A DNA stretch of 64,000 nt from Pandoraea pneumonica. GTDB taxonomy: Bacteria; Pseudomonadota; Gammaproteobacteria; Burkholderiales; Burkholderiaceae. Numbering within the stretch: the first letter of the stretch is position 1; each line of letters opens with the position of its first letter. Position numbers and translations under genes: made by a program. The notes below the pieces were generated by a model that worked only from the letters and a program-made list of their open reading frames with translations, did no database searches and was not told where the DNA came from. Shown in pieces: positions 32,077 through 39,293 of this stretch. Where the stretch lies: contig NZ_CABPSK010000001.1 in the NCBI RefSeq assembly GCF_902459645.1, forward strand, positions 1-64,000, given 5' to 3'.

Positions 32077-34383
32077 ATGACCCAACATCAAGCGCCGACA
32101 CCCGCTGCTGCCAAGGCAACGAACCCGTCGAATTCGAAGTCTGTGACGAATTCCACGGCAGGTGTGGGCGACGCTTCGCTGCCCGCCACGCTCGACGACG
32201 CGCTCGCGTTCGCCGCAGCGCTGTGCGGCGAGAACGTGCTCTCGTCAGGCGAACCCGTTATGGCGCATGCCCGCGGCATGCTTGCCATCCTCGACACGCT
32301 GCGTGTGGACGAGGCCACACATCAAGCCGCCGCACTGTTTTGCGCCGGCGAATTTCTCCCCGATACCCAAACCACGCTGACGCAGAAGTTCGGCGCGGAA
32401 GTCTCGGCACTCGTCATCGACGTTCGTAAGTTGCAGCGTCTTTCGGGCGCTGGCTCGCTGGCCGCGCACGCGATGCCCGCCGATGGCCGCGACCGCGATG
32501 CCTCGGAAGAGCGCAAGTCGCAAGTCGAAGCGTTGCGCAAGATGCTGCTGGCGTTCGCGCAGGACATCCGGGTCGTGATGATTCGGCTGGCCTCGCGGTT
32601 GCAATCGCTTCGCTGGTATGCCGCCGAGAAGAAGCCGCCGCCTGAGGACATGCCGCACGAGGTGCTGGAAATCTACGCGCCGCTCGCGAACCGCCTCGGG
32701 ATTTGGCAACTGAAGTGGGAGCTCGAAGACCTTGCGTTTCGCTTCCTCGAGCCGGTGACGTACAAGCAGATCGCTAAGCTGCTCGAAGAGAAGCGGGTCG
32801 AGCGGCAGACCTTTATCGAAGGCGCGATCGAGCGGTTGCAGGACGAACTGGCGCGCGCAGGGGTGAAGGCCGAAGTATCCGGTCGGCCGAAGCACATCTA
32901 CAGCATCTGGAAGAAGATGCGTGGCAAGGCGGTCGACTTCGCCGAGCTCTACGACGTGCGCGCGTTTCGCGTGATCGTGGACGACATCAAGGATTGCTAC
33001 ACGGTGCTGGGCATTGTCCACAACCTGTGGCAGCCGATTCCGAAAGAGTTCGACGATTACATCTCGCGGCCCAAGCCGAACGGCTACAAGTCGCTGCATA
33101 CGGTGGTCATCGGGGATGACGGTCGTGCGTTCGAGGTGCAGATTCGTACGCACGAGATGCACCACTTCGCCGAGTACGGCATTGCCGCGCACTGGCGCTA
33201 TAAGGAAGCGGGGCAGCGCGGCTACGGCGGCGCGTTTTCGGCGGGCGATGCTTACGACGAGAAGATCGCGTGGCTGCGTCAGTTGCTGGCGTGGAAGGAC
33301 GACGTGGCGGACACGGTGGGCGCAGAAGGTGCCGCGCAGCCGTGGGAGCAACTCAAGCGCGCGACCATCGACGATCACATTTATGTGCTGACGCCGCAGG
33401 CGCGTGTGATTTCGCTGCCGCAGGGTGCAACGCCGATCGATTTCGCGTATCACCTGCATTCCGAGCTGGGGCATCGCTGCCGTGGCGCGCGGGTGGATGG
33501 CGCGATGGTGCCGCTCAACACGGGGTTGCAGAACGGGCAGACGGTTGAAATCGTCACGGTCAAGCAGGGCGGGCCGTCGCGTGATTGGCTCAACCCGCAA
33601 CTGGGGTATCTGCAAAGCCATCGGGCGCGGCAGAAGGTGCGTCAGTGGTTCAACACGATCGATCTCGAAGAGACGATCGCGCATGGTCGCACGCTCATCG
33701 ACAAGACCTTGCAGCGCGAAGGCAAGACGTCGGTCAATCTCGAAGAACTGGCCGCTCGGCTGGGTTTCAAGACGCCGGACGACTTGTACGCGTCGGTAGC
33801 GAAGGACGAGTTTAGTCTGCGGCATGTGGAGCAGGCGCTCTCGGGCAATTTGCCGGGGCCGGAGCCGCGCGACGAAGATACGCTGGTCGCCAAGAAGAGC
33901 CTGGATACCAGCGTCGCGCAGGGCGCCAAGAGCGGGGTGCTGGTTGTCGGCGTGGGCGCGTTGCTCACGCAACTGGCCAAGTGCTGCCGACCGGCGCCGC
34001 CGGACCCGATTGTCGGGTTTGTCACGCGCGGCAAGGGCGTGTCGATTCACCGGCAAGATTGCACCAGCTTTCAGGCGATGAAGTCGCGCGCTCCCGAGCG
34101 CGTGATCCAGACGGCTTGGTCGGGCGATGTGCTCGAGGGCCGAGGCGTTGCCGCTTACCCGGTCGATATTCAGATCGAAGCGACGGACCGTCAGGGGCTG
34201 CTGCGCGATATTTCGGAAGTGTTCTCGCGGGAGAAGCTCAACGTCACTGGTGTGAGTACGCAATCGCGAGGGCCGCAGGCGTTCATGCAGTTCACCGTCG
34301 AAGTGCGCGATGGCGGTCAGTTGCAGCGGGCGCTGGCACAGCTCTCAGGCGTGACTGGGGTGGTGTCGTCGCGTCGGCGATAA
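32077..34383 (+). CDS. relA: GTP pyrophosphokinase RelA ((p)ppGpp synthase)
   Basis: Ribosome-associated alarmone synthase, 768 residues. The N-terminal HD-like domain (about 40-200) lacks the catalytic HD..ED residues, and the synthetase domain (GRPKHIYSIWKKMRGKAVDF, then EFDDYISRPKPNGYKSLHT) has the EFDD motif of synthesis-only RelA instead of the RxKD of SpoT. TGS (IYVLTPQARVISLPQGATPIDFAYHLHS) and C-terminal zinc-finger and ACT domains follow. The N-terminal 30 residues are Thr/Ser/Ala-rich and may not be conserved. A spoT homologue should exist elsewhere. Confidence 0.95.
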   Translation: MTQHQAPTPAAAKATNPSNSKSVTNSTAGVGDASLPATLDDALAFAAALCGENVLSSGEPVMAHARGMLAILDTLRVDEATHQAAALFCAGEFLPDTQTTLTQKFGAEVSALVIDVRKLQRLSGAGSLAAHAMPADGRDRDASEERKSQVEALRKMLLAFAQDIRVVMIRLASRLQSLRWYAAEKKPPPEDMPHEVLEIYAPLANRLGIWQLKWELEDLAFRFLEPVTYKQIAKLLEEKRVERQTFIEGAIERLQDELARAGVKAEVSGRPKHIYSIWKKMRGKAVDFAELYDVRAFRVIVDDIKDCYTVLGIVHNLWQPIPKEFDDYISRPKPNGYKSLHTVVIGDDGRAFEVQIRTHEMHHFAEYGIAAHWRYKEAGQRGYGGAFSAGDAYDEKIAWLRQLLAWKDDVADTVGAEGAAQPWEQLKRATIDDHIYVLTPQARVISLPQGATPIDFAYHLHSELGHRCRGARVDGAMVPLNTGLQNGQTVEIVTVKQGGPSRDWLNPQLGYLQSHRARQKVRQWFNTIDLEETIAHGRTLIDKTLQREGKTSVNLEELAARLGFKTPDDLYASVAKDEFSLRHVEQALSGNLPGPEPRDEDTLVAKKSLDTSVAQGAKSGVLVVGVGALLTQLAKCCRPAPPDPIVGFVTRGKGVSIHRQDCTSFQAMKSRAPERVIQTAWSGDVLEGRGVAAYPVDIQIEATDRQGLLRDISEVFSREKLNVTGVSTQSRGPQAFMQFTVEVRDGGQLQRALAQLSGVTGVVSSRRR

Positions 34384-34539
34384 AAGGGGAGGGGGGGGCT
34401 GAGGCCTGGCGTTCAGGCGAGTGTTCGGTGGCGGGGGAAATGACCGCAAAGGGAGGCCCGGGCGGCGCGGTTTCTGCGCAGGGAAGTCGCCCGGAATCGC
34501 CGCCCGACGCGGTTTTTCGCGACCGGGCACAATAATCGC

Positions 34540-34568
34540 TTGGCGATGTGCGGAAACCTTGCTAGAAT
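34540..34568 (+). promoter_or_regulatory. Sigma-70 promoter for tRNA-Val
   Basis: TTGGCG, 17-base spacer, TAGAAT, with the tRNA beginning 16 bases past the -10 box. Placement and spacing fit a tRNA promoter, and transcription could run on into the thrS leader. Confidence 0.6.
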
Positions 34569-34584
34569 CTCGTTCTCTTGCAAT

Positions 34585-34661
34585 AGGCTCGTAGCTCAGC
34601 TGGTTAGAGCACCACCTTGACATGGTGGGGGTCGTTGGTTCGAGTCCAATCGAGCCTACCA
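34585..34661 (+). tRNA. tRNA-Val (GAC)
   Basis: A 77-base cloverleaf: acceptor AGGCTCG/CGAGCCT, anticodon stem CCACC/GGTGG around TTGACAT giving anticodon GAC, T arm TTGGTTCGAGTCCAA and encoded CCA. It is single, between relA and the thrS leader, with no terminator directly after it; the first strong one is the hairpin at 34811. Confidence 0.97.
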
Positions 34662-34724
34662 ACGAATTTTGATGCATTACAGTCCGCGAGACCCCGCAGA
34701 CACAGACGCTGGAAGAAAACACTC

Positions 34725-34772
34725 ATGTTGAAGACGGCCCGAACTTTCACAGTGGTGAAGGTACGACGTTAG
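34725..34772 (+). CDS. Candidate thrS leader peptide (15 codons, three Thr)
   Basis: An open frame MLKTARTFTVVKVRR starts at the ATG at 34725 with GGAAGA about eight bases upstream. Three of 15 codons are Thr (ACG, ACT, ACA) within six residues. Its TAG stop (34770-34772) touches the GTCGAGG segment that can pair with the 5' arm of the terminator at 34811. This is the layout of a ribosome-mediated attenuator. The peptide is too short to call by statistics; that it is translated is inferred. Confidence 0.55.
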   Translation: MLKTARTFTVVKVRR

Positions 34773-34821
34773 TCGAGGGTGTTTTTCGTCTGGATGCAAG
34801 GAATGAAGAGACGGCCTCGAC
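34772..34821 (+). promoter_or_regulatory. Candidate antiterminator pairing in the thrS leader
   Basis: GTCGAGG at 34772-34778 is complementary to CCTCGAC at 34815-34821, which is the 5' arm of the terminator hairpin. The two pairings exclude each other, so a stalled ribosome on the leader peptide could decide between read-through and termination. Only seven pairs, but placed exactly after the leader-peptide stop. Confidence 0.55.
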
Positions 34822-34843
34822 GACAGTCGAGGCCGTTTTTTTT
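34811..34843 (+). terminator. Strong terminator (attenuator) in the thrS leader
   Basis: ACGGCCTCGAC, loop GACA, GTCGAGGCCGT, then a run of eight T: an 11-bp perfect GC-rich stem ending 58 bases before the thrS start codon. It either ends the tRNA-Val transcript or acts as the conditional terminator of thrS. Confidence 0.9.
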
Positions 34844-34901
34844 CGTGGTTTTGCCGCGTGGCGTGGGCCGCGTGTGACGTTTTAGCGCATGGGAGTGCGA
34901 C

Positions 34902-36809
34902 ATGATTTCGGTACGTTTGCCTGACGGTTCGCAACGCCAGTACGAAGCCCCGCTGACGGTGGCTCAGGTCGCCGGTTCGATCGGCTCGGGTCTGGCAAAG
35001 GCGGCGCTGGCCGGCCGCGTCGACGGCAAGCTGGTCGATACGTCCTTTCTGATCGATCACGATGTGAACCTCGCGATCGTCACGGACAAGGACGCCGACG
35101 GTCTGGACGTCATCCGTCACTCGACGGCTCACTTGCTGGCCTATGCCGTCAAGGAGCTGTTCCCCGAGGCGCAGGTCACCATCGGCCCGGTCATCGAGAA
35201 CGGTTTCTACTACGACTTCTCGTTCCACCGCCCCTTCACGCCGGAAGATCTCGAAGCCATCGAGAAGAAGATGCACGAGCTCGCCAAGAAGGACGAGCCG
35301 GTCACGCGTGAAGTGCTCTCGCGTGACGACGCGGTGCGTCTGTTCATGTCGATGGGCGAAAAGTACAAGGCTGAGATCATCGAGTCGATTCCGGCCACGG
35401 ATGAGATTGGTCTGTATCGCGAAGGCAAATTCGTTGACCTTTGCCGTGGTCCGCACGTCCCGTCGACGGGCAAGCTCAAGGTCTTCAAGCTGATGAAGGT
35501 GGCCGGCGCCTACTGGCGTGGCGACGCGAAGAATGAGCAGTTGCAGCGTATCTACGGTACGGCCTGGACGAAGAAGGAAGACCAGGACGCTTATCTGCAC
35601 ATGCTCGAAGAGGCGGAGAAGCGCGATCACCGCAAGCTCGGTAAAGCGCTGGACCTCTATCACATGCAGGAAGAGGCGCCGGGTCTCGTCTTCTGGCATC
35701 CGAAGGGCTGGACGCTCTGGCAGCAAATCGAGCAGTACATGCGCGGCGTCTATCGCGATAACGGTTACCAGGAAGTGAAGGGTCCGCAGATTCTGGACCG
35801 TTCGCTGTGGGAGAAGTCGGGCCACTGGCAGAACTACAAAGACAACATGTTCACGACGGAATCGGAGAGCCGCTCGTACGCGCTCAAGCCGATGAACTGT
35901 CCTGGTCATGTGTTGATTTTCAATTCGTCGCTGCATAGCTATCGCGATCTGCCGCTGCGCTACGGCGAATTCGGTCAGTGCCACCGCAACGAGCCGTCAG
36001 GCGGTTTGCATGGCCTGATGCGCGTGCGCGGCTTCACGCAGGACGACGGTCACATCTTCTGCACGGAAGATCAGATCCTCGACGAGTGCGTGAACTACAC
36101 GGCGTTGCTGCACAAGGTGTACAAGCATTTCGGATTCTCGGACATGATTTACAAGGTCGCGACGCGCCCTGAGCATCGTGTCGGTTCCGACGAGAATTGG
36201 GATAAAGCCGAATTTGCCTTGATGGAGTCGCTGCGCCGCTCGGGCTGCGAATTCGTGATCGCCGAAGGCGACGGCGCGTTCTACGGTCCGAAGATTGAGT
36301 ACACGCTCAAGGATGCGCTTGGCCGTCAGTGGCAATGTGGCACGATGCAGGTCGATTTCTCGATGCCTGAGCGTCTGGACGCCGAGTACGTCGCGGAAGA
36401 CAACAGCCGCAAGCGTCCGGTCATGCTGCACCGTGCGATTTTGGGTTCGTTAGAGCGTTTCATCGGTATTTTGATCGAGCACCATGCTGGTGCAATGCCG
36501 ACGTGGCTCGCGCCGGAACAGGTGATTGTGCTGAATGTCTCCGAAAAAACGGCCGATTACGCGCAGGAAGTGACGAAAAAGTTGAAAGAACAAGGGCTTA
36601 GGGCTCGGAGCGATTTGCGCAACGAGAAAATTAGCTATAAAATACGCGAGCACTCGTTGCAGAAAGTTCCCTATCTCGTGGTAGTGGGGGACAAAGAGCA
36701 AGAGGGGAATACGGTAGCCGTGCGTGCCCGTGGCGGCGTGGATCTGGGTGTGATGCCCGTTGACGCGCTCATCGAACGCCTTGCGCAAGAATGCGCATCG
36801 TTCCAATAA
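34902..36809 (+). CDS. thrS: Threonyl-tRNA synthetase
   Basis: Class II synthetase charging tRNA-Thr, 635 residues. Domains in order: TGS (1-60), N-terminal editing domain with [11 protein letters not shown] (HxxxH) and a later Cys/His pair, catalytic core with zinc-binding Cys in LKPMNCPGH, motif 2 [20 protein letters not shown] and motif 3 [21 protein letters not shown], and an anticodon-binding domain from about 530. It is the first gene of the thrS-infC-rpmI-rplT run; regulation by the upstream attenuator is proposed. Confidence 0.98.
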
Positions 36810-36861
36810 CGCCTGTCGGACAGCGCGGCTAAATTTTTGACTTTTTTCGAGGATAAGCAAC

Positions 36862-37380
36862 ATCGCTACCGATAAGTCGCATCGCATTAACGGCGAAATT
36901 ACTGCGCCCGAAGTGCGTCTAGTTGGGGTCGACAATGAGCCGATCGGCATCGTAAAGCTGGCCGAAGCGTTTCGTATGTCAGAAGAGGCCGATGTCGATC
37001 TGGTGGAAATCGCACCGCAGGCTCAGCCGCCGGTGTGCCGTCTGATGGACTACGGCAAGTTCAAGTATTCGGAACAGAAGAAAGCGCACGAGAACAAGCT
37101 GAAGCAGAAAGTCGTCCAGATCAAGGAAGTCAAATTCCGACCTGGCACCGACGACGGCGACTACAACGTCAAGTTGCGCAATCTGAAGCGGTTCCTCGAA
37201 GACGGCGACAAGACCAAGATCACGCTGCGTTTCCGCGGCCGTGAGATGGCTCACCAGGAAATCGGCGCTCGTATGCTGGAACGTCTGAAGTCCGATCTCG
37301 AAGAGTTCGGTCAGCCGGAACAGATGCCGAAGATGGAAGGCCGTCAGATGATCATGGTCATCGCGCCGAAGAAGAAATAA
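36862..37380 (+). CDS. infC: Translation initiation factor IF-3 (AUC start)
   Basis: The 172-residue factor binds 30S subunits and checks start codons. Homology begins with [21 protein letters not shown], in frame directly after ATC at 36862, with GAGGA eight bases upstream and no ATG, GTG or TTG closer than 36913, which would cut off the conserved N terminus. E. coli infC likewise uses a non-canonical AUU, the basis of its autoregulation by IF-3; AUC here should work the same way. The N domain, [17 protein letters not shown] linker and C domain are complete. Confidence 0.95.
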
Positions 37381-37557
37381 GCCGTGGCGGTGTCGAGTGA
37401 CACCGCCGGGTTGTCAAGAATTGCCGCAGTGGCCCGAGAGGGCTGCCGCAGCGATGCAGGGTGCAGTTAGGCCCTGAAAATAAGTGATCCCGGGTTCTAC
37501 AAGGGGCGCGATTTTGGCGTCACACCTGTGATCATGTTAAAAACCTCGGAGTTTTTC

Positions 37558-37755
37558 ATGCCTAAGATGAAAACCAAGAGCGGTGCCAAGAAGCGCTTTC
37601 GCGTGCGTCCGGGCGGTACCGTTAAGCGTGGTCAGGCTTTCAAGCGTCACATTTTGACGAAGAAGTCCACCAAGAATAAGCGTCACCTGCGCGGTGCCGT
37701 CGGCGTTCATGATTCCGATCTGAACTCCGTACGCGCAATGCTGCCCTTCGCTTAA
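37558..37755 (+). CDS. rpmI: 50S ribosomal protein L35
   Basis: The 65-residue basic protein [20 protein letters not shown] is full-length L35. The preceding in-frame stretch from 37528 is not part of it. It is followed by rplT after 25 bp. In E. coli, L20 represses rpmI-rplT by binding the leader; the 177-bp infC-rpmI gap here could hold such a site, but I did not identify one. Confidence 0.98.
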
Positions 37756-37780
37756 ACCCCGACTTAGATAGGAGAGAAAT

Positions 37781-38140
37781 ATGCCTCGAGTCAAACGTGG
37801 GGTCACTGCACGGGCCCGCCATAAGAAAGTCATCGCAGCTGCCAAGGGTTTCCGCGGCCGCCGCAATAACGTCTTCCGCATCGCTAAGCAAGCGGTCATG
37901 CGCGCTGGGCAATACGCCTACCGCGATCGCCGTAACAAGAAGCGCGTGTTCCGCGCCTTGTGGATTGCGCGTATCAATGCAGGTGTGCGTCAGCACGGTA
38001 TGACCTACAGCGTGTTCATCGCTGGTCTGAAGAAGGCCTCGATCGAACTCGACCGTAAGGTGCTGTCCGACATGGCCATCAACGACAAGCCGGCATTTGC
38101 CGCGATTGTCGCCCAGGTGAAAGCCGCCGTCGCAGCCTGA
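37781..38140 (+). CDS. rplT: 50S ribosomal protein L20
   Basis: The 119-residue protein starts [18 protein letters not shown] and contains the basic N-terminal tail and globular C domain ([18 protein letters not shown]) of L20, an early 23S rRNA-binding assembly protein and, in enterics, a translational repressor of its own operon. AGGAGAG precedes the ATG. A strong terminator follows before pheS. Confidence 0.98.
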
Positions 38141-38188
38141 AGCTGTAGTTAGCGTATAGCGCGTTTTACCGCGCGCCATTCGCCAGGA

Positions 38189-38220
38189 GGGGGCTCTCAT
38201 CGGAGCCCCCTTTTGTTTTT
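38189..38220 (+). terminator. Rho-independent terminator between rplT and pheS
   Basis: GGGGGCTC, loop TCATCG, GAGCCCCC, TTTTGTTTTT. It sits 49 bases after rplT and 60 before pheS. It may end the ribosomal transcript; pheS would then need its own promoter, or partial read-through. Confidence 0.9.
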
Positions 38221-38279
38221 CGACTGCTTTTTTGCATGTAATGCGGCCATTCCGACCGCCTAACTTGAGCCTGTAGCAT

Positions 38280-39293
38280 ATGGATCTGGAACTTATCGTC
38301 AGCGAAGCGCAGCGTGCGTTCGCCGCCGCTCCCGACGCCGCCGCGCTGGAAAACGAGAAAGCTCGCTTTCTTGGCAAGACCGGCCAACTGACCGAGTTGC
38401 TCAAGGGCCTCGGCAAGCTCGATCCTGAAGCCCGCAAGAGCGAAGGCGCACGGATCAACGCGGCCAAGCAACAGATCGAAGGCGCCTTGCAGGCGCGCCG
38501 TCAGGCCATGGCCGATGCGCTGCTCGATGCGCGCTTGTCCGCCGAAGCCATCGACGTGACGCTGCCCGGGCGCGGCCTGGGTGCCGGCAGCCTGCACCCC
38601 GTGCTCAATACGTGGGAACGCGTTGAACAAATTTTCCGTTCCATCGGATTCGACGTGGCCGACGGCCCCGAGATCGAAACCGACTGGTTCAACTTCACTG
38701 CCCTGAACAGCCCGGAGAACCACCCGGCGCGTTCGATGCAGGACACCTTCTATGTCGAAGGCAATGACGACGCCGGCAAGCCGTTGCTGCTGCGCACGCA
38801 CACCAGCCCGATGCAGGTGCGTTACGCGCGCATGAACAAGCCGCCGATCAAGGTGATTGCCCCGGGGCGCACCTATCGCGTCGACTCCGATGCCACGCAC
38901 TCGCCGATGTTCCATCAGGTTGAAGGCCTGTGGATCGCTGAAGACATCAGCTTTGCCGACCTGAAGGGCGTGTACACCGATTTCTTGCGCAAGTTCTTCG
39001 AGCGCGACGACATTCAAGTGCGCTTCCGCCCGTCGTACTTCCCATTCACGGAACCGTCCGCCGAGATCGACATGCAGTTCGAGACCGGCAAGAACGCCGG
39101 TAAGTGGCTGGAGATTTCGGGTTCGGGCCAGGTGCATCCGAGCGTGGTGCGCAACATGGGTCTCGATCCGGAGCGCTACATCGGCTTCGCGTTCGGTTCG
39201 GGTCTCGAGCGTCTGACGATGCTGCGTTACGGCGTGCAAGACTTGCGCCTGTTCTACGAGAACGACCTGCGCTTCCTGCGCCAATTCATGTAA
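38280..39293 (+). CDS. pheS: Phenylalanyl-tRNA synthetase alpha subunit
   Basis: The 337-residue catalytic subunit of the heterotetramer. An N-terminal coiled coil (about 1-90) precedes the class II core: [29 protein letters not shown] (motif 1-2 area), [19 protein letters not shown], and [26 protein letters not shown] (motif 3). It starts at the ATG at 38280; no clear Phe-rich leader peptide lies between the rplT terminator and this start. Confidence 0.98.

Follow-up and report, generated by a model that had tools for sequence, protein, structure and literature searches.

Expression of thrS in the window (the whole stretch of 64,000 nucleotides analysed here) is, with a probability of about 0.87, controlled by ribosome-mediated transcription attenuation governed by the supply of charged Thr-tRNA. 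Comparison with relatives strongly suggests that a shortage of Thr-tRNA raises the level of threonyl-tRNA synthetase (ThrRS) through a switch in the leader. We found the parts of such a switch in the window, conservation of the leader as a coding sequence, its association with thrS across genera, and an alternative pairing that co-varies. The original prediction of a threonine attenuator is supported by the conserved Thr codons, by the co-varying pairing and by an excess of Thr leaders in the order as a whole.

The features of the locus are compiled in Table 1. We take the upstream ORF to be relA and the regulated gene to be thrS; the three genes behind it are presumably infC, rpmI and rplT, named from the encoded proteins. 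The region between relA and thrS had been regarded as a bare gap, which overlooked an intervening tRNA-Val gene. As this gene is located just upstream, with 63 nt separating its end from the leader ATG, the attenuator sits within the trailer of the tRNA. The promoter-like site just 5' of tRNA-Val was the sole one found on the + strand from 34000 to 38500. Its case is argued by position only, because the count of such sites is close to chance (two per 4.5 kb, 1.8 expected); the second hexamer is kept across L001-L027 in the genus alignment (by eye). Between tRNA-Val and the leader the same scan found no promoter-like site, and therefore tRNA and leader probably belong to a common transcript, of which the terminator is likely the default 3' end as well. 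No terminator-like site was found on the + strand from thrS to the end of rplT, so that expression of infC, rpmI and rplT is probably under the predicted attenuator, too. For infC we noted a probable ATC start (..ACATCGCTACCGATAAGTCG..) that lies upstream of the GTG given in the ORF list.

Table 1. Features of the thrS region in the window
Feature	Position	Strand	Remarks
ORF named relA	32077-34383		ORF list
Promoter-like site: TTGGCG, 17 nt, TAGAAT; TG before second hexamer	34540..34568	+	16 nt before tRNA gene
tRNA-Val (anticodon GAC)	34585..34661	+	ARAGORN; Rfam RF00005
Shine-Dalgarno-like GGAAGA	34711..34716	+	8 nt before leader ATG; read directly
Predicted leader peptide MLKTARTFTVVKVRR and stop	34725..34772	+	Read directly; genus conservation
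Putative antiterminator 5' strand GTCGAGG	34772..34778	+	Pairing extends downstream in folded model
Intrinsic terminator, 11 bp, loop GACA, T run	34811..34843	+	Predicted attenuator
CCTCGAC strand, in terminator 5' arm	34815..34821	+	Pairs with upstream GTCGAGG or terminator 3' arm
thrS, threonyl-tRNA synthetase, 635 aa (regulated gene)	34902..36809	+	ORF and homologues
infC (probable ATC start), rpmI, rplT	36862..38140	+	ORFs

We infer that the leader is translated, that ribosomes stall on it, that it is co-transcribed with the tRNA and that the switch responds to threonine. In the proposed mechanism, polymerase starting at the tRNA-Val promoter would transcribe the leader. With plentiful Thr-tRNA, the ribosome would reach the stop codon at 34770 and mask GTCGAGG; CCTCGAC would then join the 3' arm of the terminator, transcription would end at about 34843, and the product would be tRNA-Val with a short trailer. 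A shortage of Thr-tRNA would instead stall the ribosome at Thr codon 4, 7 or 9 and leave GTCGAGG free to bind CCTCGAC ahead of synthesis of the 3' arm, thereby allowing read-through into thrS and probably infC-rpmI-rplT.

The leader frame comprises 15 codons from the ATG at 34725 to a TAG at 34770-34772, with Thr codons at positions 4 (ACG 34734), 7 (ACT 34743) and 9 (ACA 34749). Direct reading bore out the coordinates originally given for a GGAAGA-preceded 15-codon frame with three Thr codons in six residues. Taken as a single sequence, this frame is weak evidence, as it does not exceed chance: when the gap between tRNA and terminator was shuffled 2000 times with dinucleotides preserved, 249 shuffles (12%) contained a frame with at least three Thr in six residues. 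Such a frame is thus expected in about one shuffled gap in eight, and the case therefore rests on the relatives. The same frequency, together with the proximity of the tRNA gene, would also fit the simpler notion that the hairpin is a plain tRNA-Val terminator and the Thr-rich frame a chance frame in its trailer. A scan of three long leaders against Pfam and NCBIfam gave no match, leaders of less than 20 residues (the window's included) being unscannable.

Within the genus (32 genomes, 30 of them aligned; L numbers denote loci), the leader frame, its RTFT core and the stop codon are kept in 31 of the 32 genomes; the core is lost in the 1.2-Mb genome G018. Twenty genomes read MLKTARTFTVVKVRR (MLKT type). 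Sense variation among these twenty occurs at five codons (AAG/AAA, ACG/ACT/ACC at Thr4, GTG/GTA, GTA/GTG and CGT/CGC), each time at the third codon position and always synonymous, which argues against a chance frame. A 1-nt indel at the end of the frame only changes TAG to TAA and does not shift the end position. Six genomes have a later start (MIARTFT..) with Ile at the place of Thr4, and G003, G023, G025, G028 and G030 read MTARTFT or MTTRTFT. Retention of the Thr codons in close relatives, a check named with the original prediction, was accordingly observed for both Thr of RTFT in 31 of 32 genomes and for Thr4 in the 20 of MLKT type. The pairing strands are similarly stable: 28 of the 30 aligned genomes (L001-L028, by eye) share the same GTCGAGG and the same terminator arms, and in the remaining two, G023 and G025, both strands are changed and the antiterminator pairs are retained as G-U (by eye). 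As a separate observation, the Shine-Dalgarno-like GGGAG preceding thrS lies in the loop of a 4-bp hairpin at 34886-34899, which is kept in L001-L028 (by eye).

For the comparison beyond the genus, we drew thrS upstream regions from 80 titled contigs and from genomes at the level of family, order and class; five of the 339 loci (L161, L191, L195, L196 and L301) gave no thrS start in the sequence collected. We tallied one locus per genus, the first by locus number, leaving out second thrS copies and loci with less than 300 nt upstream. The tally represents 45 of the 49 labelled families of the order. Among the 88 genera of the order, 35 have a frame with at least three Thr in seven residues ahead of thrS, compared to 4.8 expected from shuffles, and 19 have one with at least four Thr (0.37 expected). 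The reverse-strand control yielded 8/88 and 0/88, respectively. Outside the order, where 37 genera from 113 genomes were examined, a single genus has a Thr-rich leader (1.3 expected). At the family level, Thr leaders occur in 14 of 45 families, or in 20 if two-Thr R-T leaders are counted. When the tally was made for each of the 20 amino acids, Phe alone showed a similar excess (27 vs 8.8 expected and, with the stricter threshold, 7 vs 1.3), which the T runs of terminators probably explain. In at least two of the 35 genera the Thr leader (VEHDSRPFDGVEKTDWTYKTGFGWKF, MNRNVTQTT) looks like a chance frame. An intrinsic terminator was called after the leader in 31 of the 35.

By the rule of the tally, 45 of the 88 genera have neither leader type, and 32 of these 45 still carry a same-strand tRNA upstream, a point in favour of a plain tRNA terminator with a chance frame. 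On the other hand, eight of the 35 Thr-leader genera have no same-strand tRNA within 700 nt upstream; the leader is therefore independent of the tRNA. We reject a chance frame in a tRNA trailer on the comparative counts, though the single locus is indecisive, and we consider this explanation very unlikely. The terminator probably serves both tRNA-Val and attenuation.

The leaders differ between lineages. MTPRTLTETTSERR and its kin in the family amount to 26 distinct sequences of 14 codons from nine genera and 31 genomes, and MTSVFSATTTTTTTPLAW is found in one genus of the family. Further examples are MIQAPRTTTASERQ in Ralstonia, MTPRTTTAGKRQ in Cupriavidus, MTPRTTTLEGFKRR in a Massilia, MTPRTTTKLWE in a Duganella, MTPRTTTTPTKV in Roseateles and MFKRTTTTRISR in Vogesella. 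The window frame also has Val codons (10, 11 and 13), which might suggest that the leader senses another amino acid, namely Val, or translation generally. However, the Val stretch is partly replaced within the genus (A-V-K-G in G028, E-V-K-A in G023, G025 and G030), a Val codon is present in only one of the 26 distinct Burkholderia-type leaders, and the order-wide excess of Val-rich frames is mild (13 vs 8.2 expected). On these three observations we reject valine sensing; moreover, the regulated gene is thrS. We regard this alternative as very improbable and retain threonine as the signal.

In a test that does not start from thrS, we searched 200 whole genomes of the order for the 18-nt string around the leader start ATG ACA CCG CGA AC (MTPR), tolerating one mismatch. 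Matches occurred in 22 genomes from 15 of 108 genera, once per genome, whereas the reversed motif gave no match in the 200 genomes. Each of the 22 matches shares the strand of thrS and precedes this gene by 113-193 nt, a distribution that likewise disagrees with chance frames. The motif is absent from the genome and genus of the window, where the leader begins differently, and from the five other genomes of the family outside the genus in the 200-genome sample. In the window's genome, the 21-nt RTFT stretch occurs once exactly and once more with three mismatches. Some lineages retain MTPRT with two Thr codons only. The nucleotides of the start region GGTTATGACACCGCGAAC (L340-L361) are conserved down to the third codon positions, also in leaders with few Thr codons further on, and CGGT..ACCG could make a small hairpin with the ATG in the loop.

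The terminator has its arms at 34811-34821 and 34826-34836 and a run of eight T at 34836-34843, which begins with the final base of the stem; the terminator ends 58 bp before the thrS ATG (34902). GTCGAGG overlaps the leader stop codon by one base, and a ribosome at the stop would therefore mask it. This arrangement, with GTCGAGG at the stop, CCTCGAC in the 5' arm of an 11-bp terminator, eight T and 58 bp to thrS, had been reported before and could be read directly. The antiterminator had been described as modest, with seven base pairs. This is an underestimate: further pairs extend GTCGAGG..CCTCGAC, and the predicted fold of a transcript that stops before the terminator 3' arm reaches -23.7 kcal/mol (z of -2.7 or -3.4, matched by 9 or 0 of 500 shuffles, depending on the start point).

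The duplex between leader and terminator was compared with shuffles in 31 genera, the four Thr-leader genera without a terminator call being skipped, and in 26 named loci handpicked for having a leader. Singly, p≤0.05 was reached in 6/31 genera and 3/26 named loci, and the window gave p = 0.06; the summed p values were 1.3e-5 and 3e-4, respectively. Because this test is weak per locus, we added a second one, in which the strand at the leader stop was paired with its own or a swapped terminator. In 52 loci, including 21 named ones that were handpicked for having a leader and some of which may duplicate unnamed organisms, the own terminator gave -12.6 and the swapped one -10.2 kcal/mol; the permutation p of 5e-5 is the lowest that the test can return. 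When each of 12 families was represented by a single genus, the median p was 0.0016 and the highest 0.012, and 14 genera of the family gave p = 0.0055. The pairs themselves change, for example from GTCGAGG/CCTCGAC to GGTGAGC/GCTCACC or CTGAGCC/GGCTCAG. Conservation of the alternative pairing, the other check named at the outset, was thus found in the form of sequences that change between genera while pairing with the own terminator beats swapped pairing, in the 12 families as well as in the 14 genera. These comparisons point to an antiterminator that is mutually exclusive with the terminator and co-varies, the signal at single loci being weak.

Between the leader stop and the terminator, L001-L027 hardly vary (by eye), a degree of conservation beyond what coding or pairing alone would need. 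Together with the nucleotide-level constraint around MTPR, this could mean that the trailer is a trans-acting sRNA (a tRNA-trailer sRNA) or a translational operator bound by ThrRS, with the frame being secondary. Yet it is the Thr frame and the pairing that are kept between genera, and not the sequence; also, no Rfam family except tRNA attains its gathering score in the window (33000-38500) or in eight relatives. Such an RNA therefore strikes us as highly improbable, and attenuation at Thr codons remains the preferred reading.

We further modelled the folding of the window leader with a ribosome edge at defined positions. When Thr4 or Thr7 occupies the A site, the antiterminator is predicted with a probability of 0.93; when the stop codon occupies it, the terminator is predicted with 1.00. 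A ribosome at Thr9 leaves an equilibrium in favour of the terminator (0.98). Untranslated RNA beginning at the leader ATG would form the antiterminator with 0.78 and the terminator with 0.22, and one starting at the tRNA end would form the terminator with 1.00. Given the values for Thr9 and for the untranslated RNA from the ATG, the mechanism would need kinetic trapping or a stall at codon 4 or 7. Across 31 genera, the difference in terminator-arm pairing between stall and stop averages 0.23, compared to 0.07 in shuffles (Wilcoxon p 0.0012), with several genera showing no difference and the window alone giving p = 0.066. As modelled, the antiterminator strand would be free on stalling and covered at the stop, in the window except for Thr9 at equilibrium, and on average over the 31 genera.

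Attenuators of enteric amino acid operons are known with trp, his, thr, ilv and phe leaders. The window resembles them in having a short leader rich in the relevant codons, a terminator before the first structural gene and a putative alternative hairpin whose 5' strand could be covered by a ribosome at the stop. It differs in that a synthetase gene would be controlled, that the attenuator would form part of a tRNA-Val transcript, in its trailer, and that Rfam has no match. In E. coli, pheST is controlled by an attenuator with the leader peptide pheM, which is likewise leader-peptide attenuation of a synthetase gene and in the same thrS-infC-rpmI-rplT-pheST neighbourhood; here, however, threonine replaces phenylalanine and the leader is upstream of thrS. 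The gap between rplT and pheS in the window contains a terminator-like hairpin at 38184-38215 that is not preceded by a Phe-rich leader (by eye). The thrS gene of E. coli is autoregulated at the translational level, with ThrRS binding mimics of the tRNA anticodon arm in an operator before the start codon. In both cases thrS would respond to the state of synthetase and tRNA, although control in E. coli is protein-mediated and the window has a transcription terminator with a Thr leader.

Autoregulation of E. coli thrS by ThrRS is described in PMC2965389. In Firmicutes, a T-box brings about antitermination at thrS on Thr-tRNA shortage (PMC2494555, PMC12452182), the same outcome as proposed here, and in some Clostridium it controls a thrS-infC-rpmI-rplT operon (PMC12452182). 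The T-box, however, reads uncharged tRNA directly, and its covariance model had no match at E≤1 in the window (33000-38500) or in eight relatives. The same holds for the Rfam Thr_leader (thrABC type); beyond tRNA, the Rfam scan of these sequences gave sub-threshold matches only. Attenuators of the enteric type are described in general in PMC3766115, according to which Rfam then contained only the His, Leu, Thr and Trp motifs, with Ile/Val and Phe also known.

Peptide attenuation had been suggested as a third mode of thrS control. It is not wholly new, since thrL, a threonine-dependent leader directly upstream of thrS, has been proposed in Streptomyces lividans (PMC8079986). As described there, thrL has 18 residues (MKRVRPFLETTPGFVPAR) with two Thr, a leaderless start and one hairpin but no U-rich stretch, and termination is not clear-cut. 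By this description both loci have a proposed Thr leader before thrS; the window differs by its clear terminator and conserved putative antiterminator, and the account of S. lividans thrL reports no tRNA linkage (PMC8079986). Our literature search found no Thr leader before thrS for Betaproteobacteria, though a 2010 survey of aminoacyl-tRNA operons by Lopatovskaya et al. may hold an earlier prediction. The proposed mechanism is the classical one.

If real, this would give a large Gram-negative group a control of thrS unlike both autorepression by ThrRS and the T-box. Named loci with a leader include Ralstonia, Cupriavidus, Massilia, Roseateles and Comamonas, and Burkholderia presumably belongs to the leader-bearing group as well. 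Of the leader-peptide type, it would be the first control of thrS that we found to combine a terminator with a co-varying antiterminator and broad conservation, and its leader family is absent from Rfam. An attenuator, it appears, can be housed behind an unrelated tRNA, in its trailer, and can also exist where that tRNA is missing. More tentatively, and with some doubt on our side, one may envisage an old system of the Burkholderiales in which the tRNA-Val promoter feeds Thr-gated read-through into thrS-infC-rpmI-rplT, the nucleotide constraint on MTPRT reflecting a second function of the leader. Charging of Thr-tRNA would then set the level of ThrRS and also of IF3 and two ribosomal proteins.

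Some genomes encode a second, divergent thrS copy. Three such copies, L194 (G045), L296 (G170) and L297 (G210), have frames of their own with runs of six Thr (..VTTTTTTGNG.., ..TTTTTTSTAT), whereas L193 (G100) and L295 (G244) have no six-Thr run. At L194 a terminator-like hairpin follows the frame by eye, where the scripted finder called none. The three genomes with six-Thr frames before second copies belong to two genera, which suggests that the same solution evolved repeatedly. In addition, truncated ThrRS homologues (approximately residues 240-627) are present besides the full gene in at least seven genomes, e.g. G040:C12 and G050:C10.
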